From Crocinitomicaceae bacterium (GTDB lineage: Bacteria > Bacteroidota > Bacteroidia > Flavobacteriales_D > Crocinitomicaceae), in NCBI GenBank assembly GCA_030830895.1, contig JAURMC010000014.1, positions 62,001-126,000 of the forward strand: 64,000 nt of DNA, given 5' to 3'. Under the pieces are notes generated by a model. It did not search any database and was not told the DNA's origin. It saw nothing but the letters and a program-made list of their open reading frames with translations. Of the stretch, positions 7,251 through 13,777 are shown piece after piece; the stretch's first letter is position 1; each line of letters opens with the position of its first letter. The translations under genes were made by a program, and so were the position numbers.

Positions 7251-7313
7251 CTCGACAAGCTCGGATACCGTATCGACAAGCCCGGCTACTGGATCGAAAA
7301 GTTCAGCTACGGA
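7251..7313. repeat. Three tandem degenerate 21-bp intergenic repeats (TCGACAAGCTCGGCTACYGG-like)
   Basis: ctcgacaagctcggataccgt / atcgacaagcccggctactgg / atcgaaaagttcagctacgga directly after the stop codon of the preceding gene. Confidence 0.7.
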
Positions 7314-7414
7314 AAAATAAAGACAGGCCTCCATATTCAGTTCGAGCTACATTGCCTTAGCATCATCAAATAAGTTGAATTGCATTTCGTTAGGGAGCTC
7401 GTAAAAAATCTCCA

Positions 7415-7927
7415 ATGGAAATAGAACAGATTAAAAACAGCATTCTTGAAATACGAGGCATTAAAGTAATTCTTGATTTTGAATTAGCGAAATTATATGA
7501 AGTAGAAACGAGGGTGTTGAAGCAAGCAGTCCGTAGAAATATAGAAAGATTCCCCGAAGATTTTTTATTCACCCTAACCTTAGATGAATGGAATGCTATA
7601 AGATCACAAATTGTGATGTTTAACAAAGGCAAAGGAAACTTTCCAAAATATTTACCCTTTGCGTTCACAGAACAAGGCGTCGCAATGCTTAGTGCTGTTT
7701 TAAATTCAACTCGGGCAGTTCATACCAGCATCTCCATCATGCGTGCCTTCGTTCTCATGCGCCAGTGGGCTTTAAACCACCATGAATTAAGCAAGCGCCT
7801 GGATGCGTTAGAACAACAATACGGTCAGAAATTCTCGGACATCGAGCAAGTTTTGAATTACCTCATCCAGAAAGATCAAAAGACCATTCAACAGGCCGGA
7901 CGGAAACAAGTGGGGTATAAAAAATAA
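7415..7927 (+). CDS. ORF6N domain-containing protein
   Basis: 170 aa; IRGIKVILDFELAKLYEVETRVLKQAVRRNIERFPEDFLFTLT...FAFTEQGVAMLSAVLNS is typical of ORF6N (KilA-N-related) domains. Confidence 0.85.
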   Translation: MEIEQIKNSILEIRGIKVILDFELAKLYEVETRVLKQAVRRNIERFPEDFLFTLTLDEWNAIRSQIVMFNKGKGNFPKYLPFAFTEQGVAMLSAVLNSTRAVHTSISIMRAFVLMRQWALNHHELSKRLDALEQQYGQKFSDIEQVLNYLIQKDQKTIQQAGRKQVGYKK

Positions 7928-7931
7928 TCGT

Positions 7932-8771
7932 ATGAACATCAACTCCCATTTAGCACATTTCAAAAATTATTTGATTTCTCAACGGTATAGCCCAAACACC
8001 ATTAAAACCTACACGGACGCCTTAGGTGTATTTTTTCAATATCACAGCAAAAAAGCCCCGGAACAACTTGAAATCGAAGATATCGTTCACTTCAATATGG
8101 GGTACATCCTACGAAGAAATCTCTCAGCGAGTTATCAGAACCAGGTGATCAATGCCATCAAGTTATTTTATCGAAACCGATTCAATCGAGTGATGGAATT
8201 AAACAATATACAACGTCCGCGCAGGGAAAAGCGCTTACCCAATGTATTGAGTAAGCAGGAAATCAAAACAATTATAGAAGCCCCTACAAACTTAAAGCAC
8301 CGTGCCATGTTGAGTTTAATATACGCTTGCGGATTACGAAGAAGTGAATTATTGAATTTAACCTTGAAGGATGTTCTATCGGATCGGAACTTATTGTTTA
8401 TTCGACAATCCAAAGGTAAAAAAGACCGCGTGGTTCCTATCAGTGATAAAATCATTGAAATGCTACGGACCTATTATAAAGCCCACAAACCAAAAACGTG
8501 GTTGTTTGAGGGGCAAATTTCCAACGTAAAGTATTCCGAAAAAAGCCTTGAAAATGTCTTAAAACAAAGTTTAGCGAAGGCCAAAATCAAAAAGAAAGTT
8601 AGTTTACATTGGTTACGACACAGCTATGCAACGCATCTTTTGGAAAGCGGAACCGATTTACGCTACATACAAGAATTACTTGGGCATGCTAGTTCAAGAA
8701 CCACCGAGATCTACACCCACGTAAGCACAAAAAACCTACAACAAATTCGTTCACCCTTCGATGATTTGTAA
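7932..8771 (+). CDS. Tyrosine recombinase (integron-integrase-like/XerCD-like)
   Basis: 279 aa; SAM-like N-domain (YSPNTIKTYTDAL), catalytic patches CGLRRSELL, HWLRHSYATHLL, ELLGHASSRTTEIYTHVS; C-terminus IRSPFDDL resembles IntI GVRSPLDAL. Confidence 0.9.
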   Translation: MNINSHLAHFKNYLISQRYSPNTIKTYTDALGVFFQYHSKKAPEQLEIEDIVHFNMGYILRRNLSASYQNQVINAIKLFYRNRFNRVMELNNIQRPRREKRLPNVLSKQEIKTIIEAPTNLKHRAMLSLIYACGLRRSELLNLTLKDVLSDRNLLFIRQSKGKKDRVVPISDKIIEMLRTYYKAHKPKTWLFEGQISNVKYSEKSLENVLKQSLAKAKIKKKVSLHWLRHSYATHLLESGTDLRYIQELLGHASSRTTEIYTHVSTKNLQQIRSPFDDL

Positions 8772-8820
8772 AAAATCTAACTATCTTCGAATACCCCTAC
8801 TTTATGAGGCCAAGCGAACA

Positions 8821-8871
8821 AATGCATGTTAGCTTGAAGCGAATTTATGGGGGTTATAAGTAAGTTAGCGG
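8821..8871 (+). other. Putative attI-like recombination site; cassette insertion point G^TTAGCGG at 8864/8865
   Basis: GTTAGC repeated at 8828 and 8864, immediately downstream of the recombinase; GTTAGCGG (8864-8871) is the exact reverse complement of CCGCTAAC in the attC-like site at 10839-10846. Confidence 0.6.
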
Positions 8872-8899
8872 AAATACAACGAAACCGGCAATCAGACAA

Positions 8900-9226
8900 T
8901 TAAACGGCAAACTCTTGACCCCATTTGTGCAATGACACAATACTTGGCAAAAGTTTTTCACCTTTAGCCGTTAAGGTATATTCAACAGTTGGAGGAACAG
9001 TAGCAAAAACTTCTCTTGAGACAATTCCGTTGGCTTCCATATTTTTTAATTCCTTGACCAACATTCTTGTATTAATTCCTTCAATACTTCTCTCCAACTC
9101 CTTAAATCTCATTTTTCCTTTTGACAAAATATAGATGATAGGCATCGACCATTTTCCGCCAATTATATCCAAAACATCACGCAAGGAACAAGTCTTTTCA
9201 GAAATCGTTAATTTTTTACTTCTCAT
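8900..9226 (-). CDS. HxlR-family winged-helix transcriptional regulator
   Basis: 108 aa; CSLRDVLDIIGGKWSMPIIYILSKGKMRFKELERSIEGINTRMLVKELKNMEANGIVSREVFATVPPTVEYTLTAKG. Confidence 0.93.
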   Translation of the reverse strand: MRSKKLTISEKTCSLRDVLDIIGGKWSMPIIYILSKGKMRFKELERSIEGINTRMLVKELKNMEANGIVSREVFATVPPTVEYTLTAKGEKLLPSIVSLHKWGQEFAV

Positions 9227-9259
9227 AACTAACTGGTTTTATTCATTGCTTTAAATAGT

Positions 9260-9283
9260 GTTACTATTGTACAAAAGTGTAAC
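9260..9283. promoter_or_regulatory. Putative HxlR operator in the divergent intergenic region
   Basis: GTTACTATTGTACAAAAGTGTAAC: dyad GTTAC...GTAAC around the palindrome TTGTACAA, between the divergent HxlR and OYE genes. Confidence 0.45.
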
Positions 9284-9342
9284 TACTTGCAAAAGTAAAG
9301 TATTGAATCTAGATTTACAACCTAATTCAAAATAAAATCAGA

Positions 9343-10419
9343 ATGAAACTATTAGAATCAATAAAATTAGGCGCCAAAACGCTCAACAATAGAATGGTTA
9401 TGGCACCGATGACACGTTCTCGTGCCGACTTCAACGGTATTGTAGGTAAATCAACAGTCTTGTATTATGCGCAAAGAGTAAGTGCAGGATTAATCATAAG
9501 TGAAGCAATAAATATTTCTAAACAGGCAACTGGAAGTCCTCTAACGCCAGGAATTTATAACCAAACACAAATAGATGCTTGGAAAAATGTGACAAACGCT
9601 GTACATAAAAAAGGCGGTGTTATTTATGCTCAACTTTGGCATACTGGGCGTGTGGGGCACTCGCTTGTGAAAAATGGAGAATTGCCTGTTGCACCTTCTG
9701 CAATTGCGATTCAAGGGCAACAACATTTTACAATGGAAGGAATGAAAGATTACGAAATCCCAAGAGCGTTAACACTTGAAGAAATAAACCAAATTATCCA
9801 AGACTATAAGCAAGCTGCCATCAATGCGATTGAGGCAGGGTTTGATGGTATTGAATTGCATTCAGCGTTTGGTTATTTGCCAAATCAGTTTTTAGCAGAA
9901 AGTTCAAATCAAAGGACTGATCAATATGGTGGAAACCATGAAAATAGAAACCGTTTTGTTTTGGAAGTAATGCAAGAAATGGTAAGTGCAGTAGGTGCCG
10001 AAAAAGTAGCGATACGATTATCACCAACAAGCTTGTATAACAGCATTTCACATCAAAATCTAGTTGAGCAATTCACTCTTTTAATCAAAGAACTTAATAA
10101 AATGCCATTATCCTATATTCATATAATGAATGTACCTTTTCCTGCCGATAAATTCCCACATTATACAACTAATTCGGTTGAAACATTTGGCAAATTAACA
10201 CATCATACTATTATTGCAAATTGCGGTTACACAAGAGAATCAGGCGAAGCTGAATTAGAAAAAGGAATAGCAAAATTGATTTCTTATGGAGCATTATTTT
10301 TAGCAAATCCAGACTTGCCAAAACGATTCGAGTTAAATTCAGAACTCAATCAACCCGACAGAGCTACCATGTATGGGGGTAAAGACCAAGGTTATATTGA
10401 CTATCCATTTCTATCATAA
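9343..10419 (+). CDS. Old yellow enzyme family alkene reductase / N-ethylmaleimide reductase-like
   Basis: 358 aa; NRMVMAPMTRSRA, AQLWHTGRVGH, AGFDGIELHSAFGYLPNQFLAESSNQRTDQYGGNHENRNRFVLEV. Confidence 0.93.
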   Translation: MKLLESIKLGAKTLNNRMVMAPMTRSRADFNGIVGKSTVLYYAQRVSAGLIISEAINISKQATGSPLTPGIYNQTQIDAWKNVTNAVHKKGGVIYAQLWHTGRVGHSLVKNGELPVAPSAIAIQGQQHFTMEGMKDYEIPRALTLEEINQIIQDYKQAAINAIEAGFDGIELHSAFGYLPNQFLAESSNQRTDQYGGNHENRNRFVLEVMQEMVSAVGAEKVAIRLSPTSLYNSISHQNLVEQFTLLIKELNKMPLSYIHIMNVPFPADKFPHYTTNSVETFGKLTHHTIIANCGYTRESGEAELEKGIAKLISYGALFLANPDLPKRFELNSELNQPDRATMYGGKDQGYIDYPFLS

Positions 10420-10432
10420 TAACAACATTATA

Positions 10433-10810
10433 ATGTCTTTAAGATATTTTCAACTGTCATTACTTATCGCAATGACAATTTTTACAAACTCTATGTATTC
10501 ACAAGCAAACCCAAATAATATGGAACCATCAGGAACACAAGAAATCGACAACAGAATTCTTGCAATTCTCACATTAGACATGGAGAACATTCCAAGCGAT
10601 TTTCAAGAAATCATTAAACACGAAAAAGAGGTTGTTGCTCAATGGAAAGAAGAAGGAATACTTGAAAACTTGTTTTTAAGACAAGGAAATGGTGCAATTC
10701 TAATTTTCATAGGTGTTGACGAAGAAAAAGCAAAAGAATTAATGGAGACACTTCCTTTGTATAAACTTAAAAAAAGCGTTGAATACTTCAGCTTAGTAAA
10801 ACAGTTTTAA
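10433..10810 (+). CDS. Small exported protein with muconolactone isomerase/YCII-like (dimeric alpha-beta barrel-like) domain
   Basis: Internal ATG at 10433 gives a signal peptide (MSLRYFQLSLLIAMTIFTNSMYSQA) and avoids overlap with the OYE gene; C-terminal half GAILIFIGVDEEKAKELMETLPLYKLKKSVEYFSL. Confidence 0.6.
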   Translation: MSLRYFQLSLLIAMTIFTNSMYSQANPNNMEPSGTQEIDNRILAILTLDMENIPSDFQEIIKHEKEVVAQWKEEGILENLFLRQGNGAILIFIGVDEEKAKELMETLPLYKLKKSVEYFSLVKQF

Positions 10811-10838
10811 TAAGCAGTTAACTGAAGAAAATGTACTA

Positions 10839-10970
10839 CCGCTAACAGCGGTTTGGCGTAATGGGGGCTGACGTGCTTAATTGAACGTTGGTCCTTTTTA
10901 TTTATATTTGTTGTAGGCTGAAAGATTGTGCTTTTAATCCCCCACTACGCCAAGCCCGAAACCGTTATGC
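10839..10970 (+). other. attC-like recombination site of the cassette
   Basis: R''-like CCGCTAAC (10839-10846); arms TTGGCGTAATGGGGG (10853-10867) and CCCCCACTACGCCAA (10939-10953) pair 14/15; about 71-nt terminal loop; R'-like GTTATGC (10964-10970). Confidence 0.65.
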
Positions 10971-11153
10971 CTTATTAACAGACTTTTGTGGTAGATTGAT
11001 TCTTTGAGCAAATCAAACACATTTGTGCAAAAAAGAATCGAATGAACCTTGAGATCACGAAAGTAAGTATATCCTTGAACGTTCCACATTAACAATCTAT
11101 TGATTGAATTTCATGTTTAATTTTTTAAATTAGTAAACCCTTGAAATCGATGA

Positions 11154-11639
11154 ATGGCTAAATCAATTGTGACCACCTTATTACTTTGCATAATACTGAC
11201 CAGTTCTGTTAAATCACAAAGCGAACCTAAAAACGCCGTTTATTTTGAATTACTTGGAAATGGAGGGCTTTACTCTTTTAATTATGAGAGACAATTCTAT
11301 AAATCCAAAGACGTATGGCCATTTGGATCCAAAACTTTAAAAGTATATGGCCGTGGCGGACTTAGCGCGATTGCATATTCGAAACTTTGGGGGGGAACTA
11401 TCCCAATAGAGTGCTCAGTCGCATTCGGAAAAAATAAAAATTATATTGAAGCTGGATTTGGATGCACATTTATTTATTTATCTTTTTCTGGGTTTGATCA
11501 TCCAAGTATACCTTTACGAATTGGTTATCGACTAGAAATAAGTGAGTATTTATTTAGAGTGGGACTAACTCCATATTTTGACCAAGTAACGTTCAATCCT
11601 TGGGTGGGTTTAAGCTTTGGAAAAAGGTTTGATGATTAG
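11154..11639 (+). CDS. Hypothetical secreted/outer-membrane protein
   Basis: 161 aa with signal peptide (MAKSIVTTLLLCIILTSSVKSQ) and short alternating beta-strand-like stretches. Confidence 0.5.
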   Translation: MAKSIVTTLLLCIILTSSVKSQSEPKNAVYFELLGNGGLYSFNYERQFYKSKDVWPFGSKTLKVYGRGGLSAIAYSKLWGGTIPIECSVAFGKNKNYIEAGFGCTFIYLSFSGFDHPSIPLRIGYRLEISEYLFRVGLTPYFDQVTFNPWVGLSFGKRFDD

Positions 11640-11816
11640 ATTAGCTTAACATGGTTGTAATTAACAAATTTGATTCCTATAGAGCTAGTTTCCGTTAAAA
11701 AACGGCCCACATCCCAATGTCCAAAACCATCACTATTTTTTGGTATGTTGATTGCAATGAATTATGTTTACCGCTAGATTAGAATCTCAGTAATTTGCAA
11801 TAAAAACTAAGTCATT

Positions 11817-12239
11817 TTGACACATATATTTTTAAATAATTCATTCTATTTCAGAAAATTAGTTTTAATCACTCTCAAATTTGTAGTACTGTTAACTGAT
11901 GTTACCATTGTTAACGGACAACCCTTTGATATCTTAACGTCAACACAAAGAAATATTCGAATAGATAATTCAATTACATTGTTAGAATCAATAGAACCGA
12001 ATACAGAACGAGTAGTATTCAGTCCTCCGCTAAAAGATACTGTCTTTATTCCCGAATATAAAGATACTATTGGACAATTCTATTTCAGTATAACTGCTTT
12101 GGGAAGTGAAATTAATATTCAGTATTTGAATGATAGTAAATGGTTTTTATTTGGTACAAGAACAGAATATGCAAGCTATCCTTTTATATTGAAAACAATT
12201 AATTCTGGAAATATCAATAGTTATTTCATTTATATGTAA
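11817..12239 (+). CDS. Hypothetical protein
   Basis: 140 aa ORF with hydrophobic N-terminus; no recognised family. Confidence 0.35.
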   Translation: MTHIFLNNSFYFRKLVLITLKFVVLLTDVTIVNGQPFDILTSTQRNIRIDNSITLLESIEPNTERVVFSPPLKDTVFIPEYKDTIGQFYFSITALGSEINIQYLNDSKWFLFGTRTEYASYPFILKTINSGNINSYFIYM

Positions 12240-12309
12240 ATCAACTAATTAACATCATCACAAATGCGTAATCTGCTTTAATCATTGTTTAATTTACTCC
12301 AACGGATTT

Positions 12310-13563
12310 ATGGAAATTCCCATTCTTAAGTTAATAAAACCCACATTTTCAATACACCTTCTATCCATATTAATTATCATTTTTTCTCATAGCTACTCTC
12401 AACACCTCAAGTTTGAACAAGACACCTTTGATTTTGGTAAATTGCATTACAAGCCTGGACTTAAAAGATATCTTAATTTCATAAATACAAGTTCAGATAC
12501 GATAAAATTCCTTGGTGTACCATTAACAGCAACTGGGTTCGACGTTGCCTCGACAGTTAACAATAAAATGAGCTATGCTCCGGGAGAATATGGTACTTTG
12601 ATTTACCATTTCGAATCTAAAAAACCCGGCAATTATCACAAGACCATCAAGATCGTTACTAATCTCGATTCATTACCAATATTACTTTTTGTGCAATGGG
12701 AAATCTTACCAGATATTATTTTTAACCCGATCATAGATAAATTAATCCCCGACAAGGAAAGAATGATTTCATACCTCAGACAAATTGAACATCAAGGTTG
12801 CTACGGCTCTTTATCTTATGTTTATTCTCATGATCCATACGAATCCAGACAAGCACATTACAGTGAATGTGACACCCTCAGGAATTTGGCGATACAATCG
12901 TTGAATAAATCCTTAAATGTTGATGAGCTATTTAAACAAGCCTGCTCTAATGAAAACGAAATAGTGCGGTTGGTTTGCCTGGAAACTATTTCTAGATTTA
13001 AAAAGAATTCAGAACGTATAGAATCAATTTTTGAGGCTGAGTATTTAAAAACCATTGCGAAACCATCGTTATTTGGAACAGAATGGGCGGTATATTATCG
13101 TATGTTAGACATCGTTTCGCCACAATACTCCGAATTCTTCCCAATCTCTAACAAGCTTGACCTTCAAACATATGTTTATTTAGCTTCCTTGCCTGTAGAT
13201 CAAACCTATACTGCGATTGGTGAATGGAAATCATTCTCCCTTGTACAATCAGCGCTCAACTATGGAACAATTGACTTAACTGATTATTCTTTGCCTAATG
13301 GATCGTTTGTAATTCGAGGAAAGATACATGTTAAGAATACCCAAGATCATTCAGTGGTGGTTGCTCCATACCATGATGGTTCAACTTGGTGCGACCAAAA
13401 AAGTTATCGGATTCCGCCTAACGAACAGATAGATATAAACTTTTGGACATCAATACGAATAAATGAAATGAATAACCCTATTCATCGAGTTATTCATCTT
13501 GTAGACTATAACACTAAGGAAAAACAACTTTTCAATATTGAAGCAAAATTCGAGAATTTTTAA
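12310..13563 (+). CDS. Exported protein with DUF1573-like N-terminal Ig-like domain
   Basis: Signal peptide then LKFEQDTFDFGKLHYKPGLKRYLNFINTSSDTIKFLGVPLTATGFDV, typical of DUF1573; C-terminal part unassigned. Confidence 0.6.
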   Translation: MEIPILKLIKPTFSIHLLSILIIIFSHSYSQHLKFEQDTFDFGKLHYKPGLKRYLNFINTSSDTIKFLGVPLTATGFDVASTVNNKMSYAPGEYGTLIYHFESKKPGNYHKTIKIVTNLDSLPILLFVQWEILPDIIFNPIIDKLIPDKERMISYLRQIEHQGCYGSLSYVYSHDPYESRQAHYSECDTLRNLAIQSLNKSLNVDELFKQACSNENEIVRLVCLETISRFKKNSERIESIFEAEYLKTIAKPSLFGTEWAVYYRMLDIVSPQYSEFFPISNKLDLQTYVYLASLPVDQTYTAIGEWKSFSLVQSALNYGTIDLTDYSLPNGSFVIRGKIHVKNTQDHSVVVAPYHDGSTWCDQKSYRIPPNEQIDINFWTSIRINEMNNPIHRVIHLVDYNTKEKQLFNIEAKFENF

Positions 13564-13777
13564 TGGCGTTTTTCTTGTAATTATTTTGGATTTCACCAAG
13601 AATTAGAATTAGTAACAATGATTACTGCGAAAGAGTTTTTTAAATTTGTCTACCCCAATAAAGGCGTCATGTGGATATGAAAGTTTATTTTAATTGCTTC
13701 CATTAAAGCATACGCTTTTGGTTGTATTTAAAGATTAAACGAAACTATGCATAATGCTACGCATTTAATAATTACCT

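Follow-up and report, generated by a model that had tools for sequence, protein, structure and literature searches.

The additional domain around patch III/I2 marks the integron integrases, IntI (PMC9668308, PMC4792948), and serves both as the defining mark of integrons and as a search profile in standard tools (PMC9668308). Its 20-residue I2 part has not been identified elsewhere among tyrosine recombinases (PMC4792948). In the 64,000-nucleotide stretch of Crocinitomicaceae DNA analysed here, hereafter the window, a tyrosine recombinase gene without this domain adjoins a gene cassette with an attC-like site, and the question raised by the locus is whether it is a cassette system that uses a different recombinase lineage, as an earlier note on the sequence had suggested. 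Based on sequence comparisons, we consider it highly probable that the locus, with its one cassette, belongs to a gene-capture system of the integron type in Bacteroidota that uses a non-IntI recombinase lineage. The features of the locus are the following, with ↓ marking the predicted crossover point.

7415..7927, + strand: ORF6N-domain gene (Pfam ORF6N, 110 bits), 4 bp before the ATG of the recombinase gene
7932..8771, + strand: tyrosine recombinase gene, ATG at 7932, 279 aa, lacking both the IntI insertion and the HARP-like N-terminal domain of its relatives
8793..8854, + strand: attI-like imperfect hairpin, outer arms ACCCC (8793–8797) and GGGGT (8850–8854), inner arms CAAGCGAACA (8811–8820) and TGTTAGCTTG (8827–8836)
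8854..8871, + strand: attI core TTATAAGTAAG↓TTAGCGG, conserved tail, with a junction from which R'' of the attC can be predicted
8865..10964, + strand: integrated cassette, 2,100 bp, ends from the complementarity of GTTAGCGG (8864–8871) and CCGCTAAC (10839–10846)
8900..9226, − strand: cassette gene, HxlR-type transcriptional regulator (Pfam HxlR, 99 bits)
9343..10419, + strand: cassette gene, old-yellow-enzyme (OYE)/N-ethylmaleimide-reductase-like flavoenzyme (Pfam Oxidored_FMN, 269 bits; NF007899, 337 bits, under cut-off)
10433..10810, + strand: cassette gene, small protein with a signal-peptide-like start (no match in Pfam or NCBIfam)
10839..10971, + strand: attC-like site, R'' CCGCTAAC (10839–10846), long imperfect stem, asymmetric spacer, R' G10964↓TTATGCC

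Structure and classification of the recombinase

According to Pfam, the recombinase consists of a SAM-like core-binding domain and a catalytic domain only (Phage_integrase, 141.9 bits), and a search for an arm-binding (AB) domain at the N-terminus by the same means found none. The alignment with VchIntIA/IntI4 (PDB code 2a3v) falls into two parts and jumps from query residue 179/chain residue 178 to query residue 202/chain residue 243, so that about 42 residues are absent at the IntI-specific domain. The TIGR02249 integron integrase profile is matched in two stretches with 204 bits, below its cut-off of 265, while NF040815 (XerA/"site-specific tyrosine recombinase/integron integrase") is passed with 223 bits (cut-off 220). 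The earlier note had described the protein as lacking the IntI insertion and the gene as reading toward the cassette; both observations hold, the gene lying on the + strand and pointing at the attC-like site. The C-terminus, IRSPFDDL, is a feature of the lineage. The AlphaFold model of the recombinase (pLDDT 89) finds IntI4 bound to attC as its first fold match in the PDB (TM 0.77), followed by XerA.

In a tree of 129 recombinases, from which the insertion columns were excluded, canonical IntI proteins form a clade on a long stem (SH-aLRT 100), with the window protein outside, and the XerC/D and IS91-linked recombinases form further groups distinct from the IntI clade. A smaller, careful tree likewise recovers the IntI clade (100/100) without the window protein, and a tree with this protein and its neighbour forced into IntI is rejected (p-AU 0.006). 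In the large tree, the pooled lineage does not clearly form a single clade; in the smaller it does (84/56). The phylogeny with IntI and XerC/D proposed in the note thus supports the placement of the window recombinase in a Bacteroidota lineage apart from both.

The profile of the lineage is matched by 115 of the 192 sampled genomes of the window's class at E ≤ 1e-55; because the weakest matches may be other recombinases, we put the number of carriers at about 110. Canonical IntI exceeds the TIGR02249 cut-off in 47 of the 149 genomes of the phylum sample, 46 of them outside the window's class and only one inside.

The NF040815 match, together with archaeal XerA being the best PDB match by sequence, would also be accounted for by a chromosome-dimer-resolution Xer of the XerA/XerH type, with the palindrome 3' of the gene as its dif site. 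This is scarcely credible, as a separate Xer in the genome (G000:C4, 34% identity) falls in the XerC/D clade, the window recombinase gene is patchy and missing from more than half of the window's genus, and the palindrome is not conserved in sequence and is followed by cassettes.

The attI-like site and the cassette

In nearly all close homologues, a hairpin with a sequence that differs in each genome lies about 40–130 bp past the stop codon of the recombinase gene, followed by a short conserved tail and then by another gene in each genome. The consensus of this tail is TATAAnnnAAG↓TTR in the window's branch, and a short palindrome with nnYG↓TTR in other branches. Because the hairpin arms differ in every genome and do not align, RNAalifold on the attI alignment returned no pairs, and the stems were instead scored for each sequence. 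The mean best stem score is 8.66 over 31 loci of the window's branch, compared with 5.61 (s.d. 1.03) in dinucleotide shuffles. The attI hairpins keep their shape and not their sequence. Their location on the 3' side of the recombinase gene is typical of the lineage. Promoter-like sites directed toward the cassettes, as for a Pc promoter, number 18, little above the 12.8 (s.d. 3.4) found in shuffles.

The site at 10839–10971 is the sole convincing attC in the 64 kb, and is the best AAC...GTT hairpin with fitting ends. The DNA fold of its bottom strand has a z-score of −2.73, with none of 200 shuffles as good, and sites homologous to it are present in relatives. The cassette that it closes has a GC content of 0.34–0.36, compared with about 0.40 in the surroundings. 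The note had located the attI at 8821–8880 and the attC at 10839–10970, and both placements are correct, with the predicted crossovers after G8864 and G10964, respectively; in the attI, the crossover would fall between G8864 and T8865.

A BLAST search found no second attC copy in the window's own genome, a metagenome-assembled genome (MAG) that is 64% complete, and we accordingly describe the locus as a one-cassette platform. Nor did a search of the window find an R'' able to close a second cassette (GGCATAACA), which is why 10972–13760 is left outside the cassettes. This region is AT-rich (GC 0.32–0.36), and has three genes without a family and no second attC; it may represent former cassettes stripped of their sites. 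A comparison with an empty site was attempted through the rluF-like neighbour, but neither the PDH genes nor the large surface protein nor ORF6N were found beside it in relatives. The locus therefore does not occupy a conserved position, and an empty site could not be read.

Junction complementarity

In an integron, the circular cassette has R'' and R' in one attC, and once the cassette is integrated, the R' half opens it. It follows that the R'' of a cassette is complementary to the start of the same cassette, i.e., to the preceding R'. This relation was examined with hairpins from an AAC...GTT scan that is blind to the flanking bases. In 40 of 64 pairs of adjacent attC sites, R'' and the preceding R' are perfect reverse complements across the five variable bases, as compared with 1.8% of random pairs and 5 of 100 comparisons of R' and R'' within the same site. 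For the first cassette, GTTR in the first 400 bp past the recombinase was used to predict the R'' of the downstream attC, and the prediction is correct at 35 of 53 loci, the window included (permuted mean 1.7, maximum 7 in 500). On long loci, the junction sign appears in 15 of 30 downstream and 1 of 48 upstream regions, and in none of 15 for other recombinases. The scan thresholds are home-made, and loci that overlapped between searches were reduced by removing duplicates according to the downstream sequence. We read the imperfect junctions (24 of the 64 pairs and 18 of the 53 loci) as missed, decayed or false sites.

The window follows the rule at eight of eight bases, GTTAGCGG at 8864–8871 against CCGCTAAC at 10839–10846. 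With a single attC and cassette, this match would arise by chance in about 2% of cases, and the weight of the junction evidence therefore rests on the family. We regard the complementarity, as a sequence signature, as the decisive sign of an integron-type system.

The reaction that we propose is one in which circular cassettes would be inserted by the recombinase at the attI-like site that lies immediately 3' of the recombinase gene, by joining of attI (cut AAG↓TT) to the cassette attC (cut CG↓TT), the latter acting as a folded single strand. From attI × attC joining at G↓TT, it follows that the cassette starts with TTRnnn and ends with its own attC. The recombinase would thus be the catalyst of the attI × attC reaction, with the folded bottom strand of attC as its probable substrate.

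The junction rule also bears on a more ordinary reading, in which a prophage, ICE or IS91-type integrase happens to lie beside unrelated low-GC genes and a terminator-like hairpin. Related recombinases do directly precede IS91 transposases in Alphaproteobacteria, and ORF6N domains are common in phages. However, the hairpins follow the cassette junction rule, the AB domain is absent, the IS91-linked recombinases are a separate group in the tree, and no phage or ICE genes are found among the neighbours examined, which together leave this reading very unlikely.

Cassette arrays in relatives

The survey of homologues for attC-like arrays that the earlier note had called for was made with a self-repeat scan combined with the junction test, as a plain hairpin scan misses most of the short attC types. 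Direct repeats with attC anatomy follow the attI-like site in long-contig isolates of Rufibacter, Seonamhaeicola, Algibacter, Winogradskyella and Flavobacterium, with about 11 attC sites in the Rufibacter array. The arrays occur on the 3' side of the recombinase gene only, and some members of the lineage have no visible array. Within 3 kb of the gene, contigs end in 25 of 48 cases 3' of it but in 6 of 54 cases 5' of it (p = 1e-5), which is what repeat arrays would cause. Because assemblies in the window's genus are highly fragmented, joint occurrence of attC matches and the recombinase there is given no weight. The note's suggestion of a different recombinase lineage with cassettes is thereby supported well past the limits of the window, and the recurrence of attI-like sites and attC arrays beside its members is the opposite of what a grouping with prophage or ICE integrases lacking attC-like neighbours would give.

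With sites of the integron type, and cassettes that are able to spread without their integrase, a canonical IntI located elsewhere in the genome, now or formerly, could move the cassettes in trans and leave the Xer-like recombinase as a bystander, and the window MAG is just 64% complete. Several complete genomes with multi-attC arrays, among them G078 (locus L262, with eight attC) and G112 (L258), lack any TIGR02249 match at E ≤ 1e-40, which makes action of IntI in trans unlikely there. The rarity of IntI in the class, with one genome over the cut-off compared with 46 phylum-sample genomes from other classes, and the attI junction directly after the lineage recombinase gene in 35 loci also argue against such a role. 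We therefore give an IntI acting in trans very little probability, and retain the recombinase of the lineage as the probable enzyme.

A HARP-like domain and an ORF6N neighbour

Most relatives of the window recombinase have an N-terminal extension of 75–100 residues with the pattern F.YD..LI...K.L.G..WS...K.W..P, counted by HMM in 88 of 109 lineage members. Pfam gives nothing over cut-off for this extension. A search of the PDB with the domain profile identifies the HARP domain of SMARCAL1 (PDB code 4o66, E = 0.0017), and the AlphaFold model of the domain (pLDDT 87) gives the same entry as the first, weak, Foldseek match (prob 0.75, E = 0.07), with XPB next. As the link to HARP rests on the profile search and Foldseek, with Pfam giving nothing, we assign the extension as HARP-like with moderate confidence. 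HARP binds fork and single/double-strand junction DNA, and by analogy such binding would suit a folded attC. The domain is fused to the N-termini of tyrosine recombinases at L109, L121, L122, L127, L136 and other loci, and we know of no description of such a fusion.

In the window's genus, the HARP-like domain is missing. The ORF6N gene is located directly upstream in every copy in the genus that has upstream sequence, sometimes twice, and the neighbours in G005, G007, G009, G020, G024 and G025 are 58–93% identical. Its product is likely an accessory DNA-binding protein or regulator. The role of the IntI extra domain might be taken by this protein in the window's genus and, in members of the lineage that carry it, by the HARP-like domain. 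Three 21-bp direct repeats (TCGACAAGCTCGG...) are located at 7252–7314 of the window, upstream of the ORF6N gene.

Comparison with known systems

The system shares with integrons a site-specific platform with the array adjoining the recombinase and the crossover at G↓TT. As in integrons, the attC sites form hairpins that are bounded by R'' and R' and contain an asymmetric spacer, and R'' pairs with the bases that open its own cassette; the recombinase fold is closest to IntI4. The system differs in that the recombinase lacks the IntI-specific domain and does not fall in the IntI clade, in that most relatives have the HARP-like N-terminal domain, and in that the gene is co-directional with the cassettes, with an attI 3' of the gene that is a variable hairpin. 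As judged from these features, the system works like an integron, yet its recombinase is not of the IntI family. An integron in which the integrase reads toward the cassettes has reportedly been found in Treponema denticola, which shares this orientation but has a true IntI.

Integrons have been recorded for Bacteroidota by means of the IntI domain (PMC8618304, PMC9668308), and IntegronFinder 2.0 lists for the Bacteroidetes proper only earlier In0 elements and one complete integron, in Salinibacter (PMC9024848). In the open literature, to which our search was confined, we found no description of the lineage as an integron-type system. In CTXphi integration by XerCD, too, a tyrosine recombinase that lacks I2 works on single-stranded DNA in folded form, but the enzyme is the host XerCD and the DNA a phage genome, with no cassettes and a stem free of extrahelical bases (PMC4792948).

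The recombinase-associated acquired interbacterial defence (rAID) arrays of Bacteroidales consist of a predicted tyrosine recombinase with co-oriented immunity genes 3' of it and conserved intergenic motifs, and their mechanism of assembly was called unclear in a 2025 preprint; they are recognized by a recombinase upstream of at least two co-directional genes with GC <41% (PMC12247911). With the present system they have in common the predicted tyrosine recombinase, the co-oriented short genes 3' of it and the conserved intergenic motifs. In the window, the OYE and small-protein genes are co-directional and AT-rich, but the first cassette gene is divergent, and the cassette has no orphan immunity genes, encoding instead the HxlR regulator, the OYE and one unknown protein. 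Compared with the single metabolic cassette of the window, rAID arrays carry immunity genes, and their repeats are shorter, at about 47 bp, with another end motif. The Bacteroides ovatus plasmid NZ_CP081918 (L324) has a recombinase 46% identical to that of the window, an attI-like palindrome and short hairpin repeats, with about ten co-oriented small genes (SMI1/KNR4, Imm26 and PoNe immunity) after the recombinase, and has the appearance of a rAID array whose recombinase belongs to the window's lineage. Extending this comparison, rAID arrays appear to be one branch of the lineage and would share its mechanism.

In the xerD-tet(X) units of Acinetobacter plasmids, which are flanked by ISVsa3 of the IS91 family, the recombinase is 45% identical to that of the window, and tet(X) is preceded by an attI-like palindrome and G↓TTATGTGCC. 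In the tet(X3)/tet(X5) plasmids NZ_CP104735 and NZ_CP044520, the palindrome ATATACGCCATTTGGCGTATA and G↓TTATGTGCC are located between the recombinase and tet(X) (L320:3797–3813 and L321:5346–5362). No matching attC was found past tet(X) in these two plasmids; the arrangement is as if tet(X) had entered once as a first cassette.

Two further observations concern other mobile elements. Related recombinases directly before IS91-type transposase genes, with no attI-like site, occur at L140, L148, L155, L158, L160, L142, L057 and belong to Alphaproteobacteria, to a relative of Clostridium and to one genome of the window's genus. The Chryseobacterium plasmid NZ_CP041688 (L322) has three near-identical hairpins of about 140 bp (CCCAACGGCCAGCTCGGC...) among its cassettes, one directly after attI, as well as a group II intron and an IS110 element; all of these are possibly secondary elements that target cassette sites.

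Implications

We advance tentatively, as a possibility that we rate somewhat below even, the broader proposal that most of Bacteroidia runs an independent integron class, in which the folded attC would be recognized without the IntI extra domain, through a fused HARP-like (fork/ssDNA-binding) domain in most lineages and through an ORF6N partner in the window's genus, with the rAID arrays and the xerD-tet(X) unit as offshoots.

A platform with the sites and the junction rule of integrons, but with a recombinase that lacks the IntI domain, would mean that integrons of Bacteroidia are being missed. It would also mean that enzymes have a second way to recognize a folded attC, so that a comparison of the two could test what I2 does. 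For the defence arrays of gut Bacteroidales, the lineage offers a mechanism for rAID, and the occurrence of tet(X) directly after an attI-like site on Acinetobacter plasmids hints at a route out of Bacteroidota.
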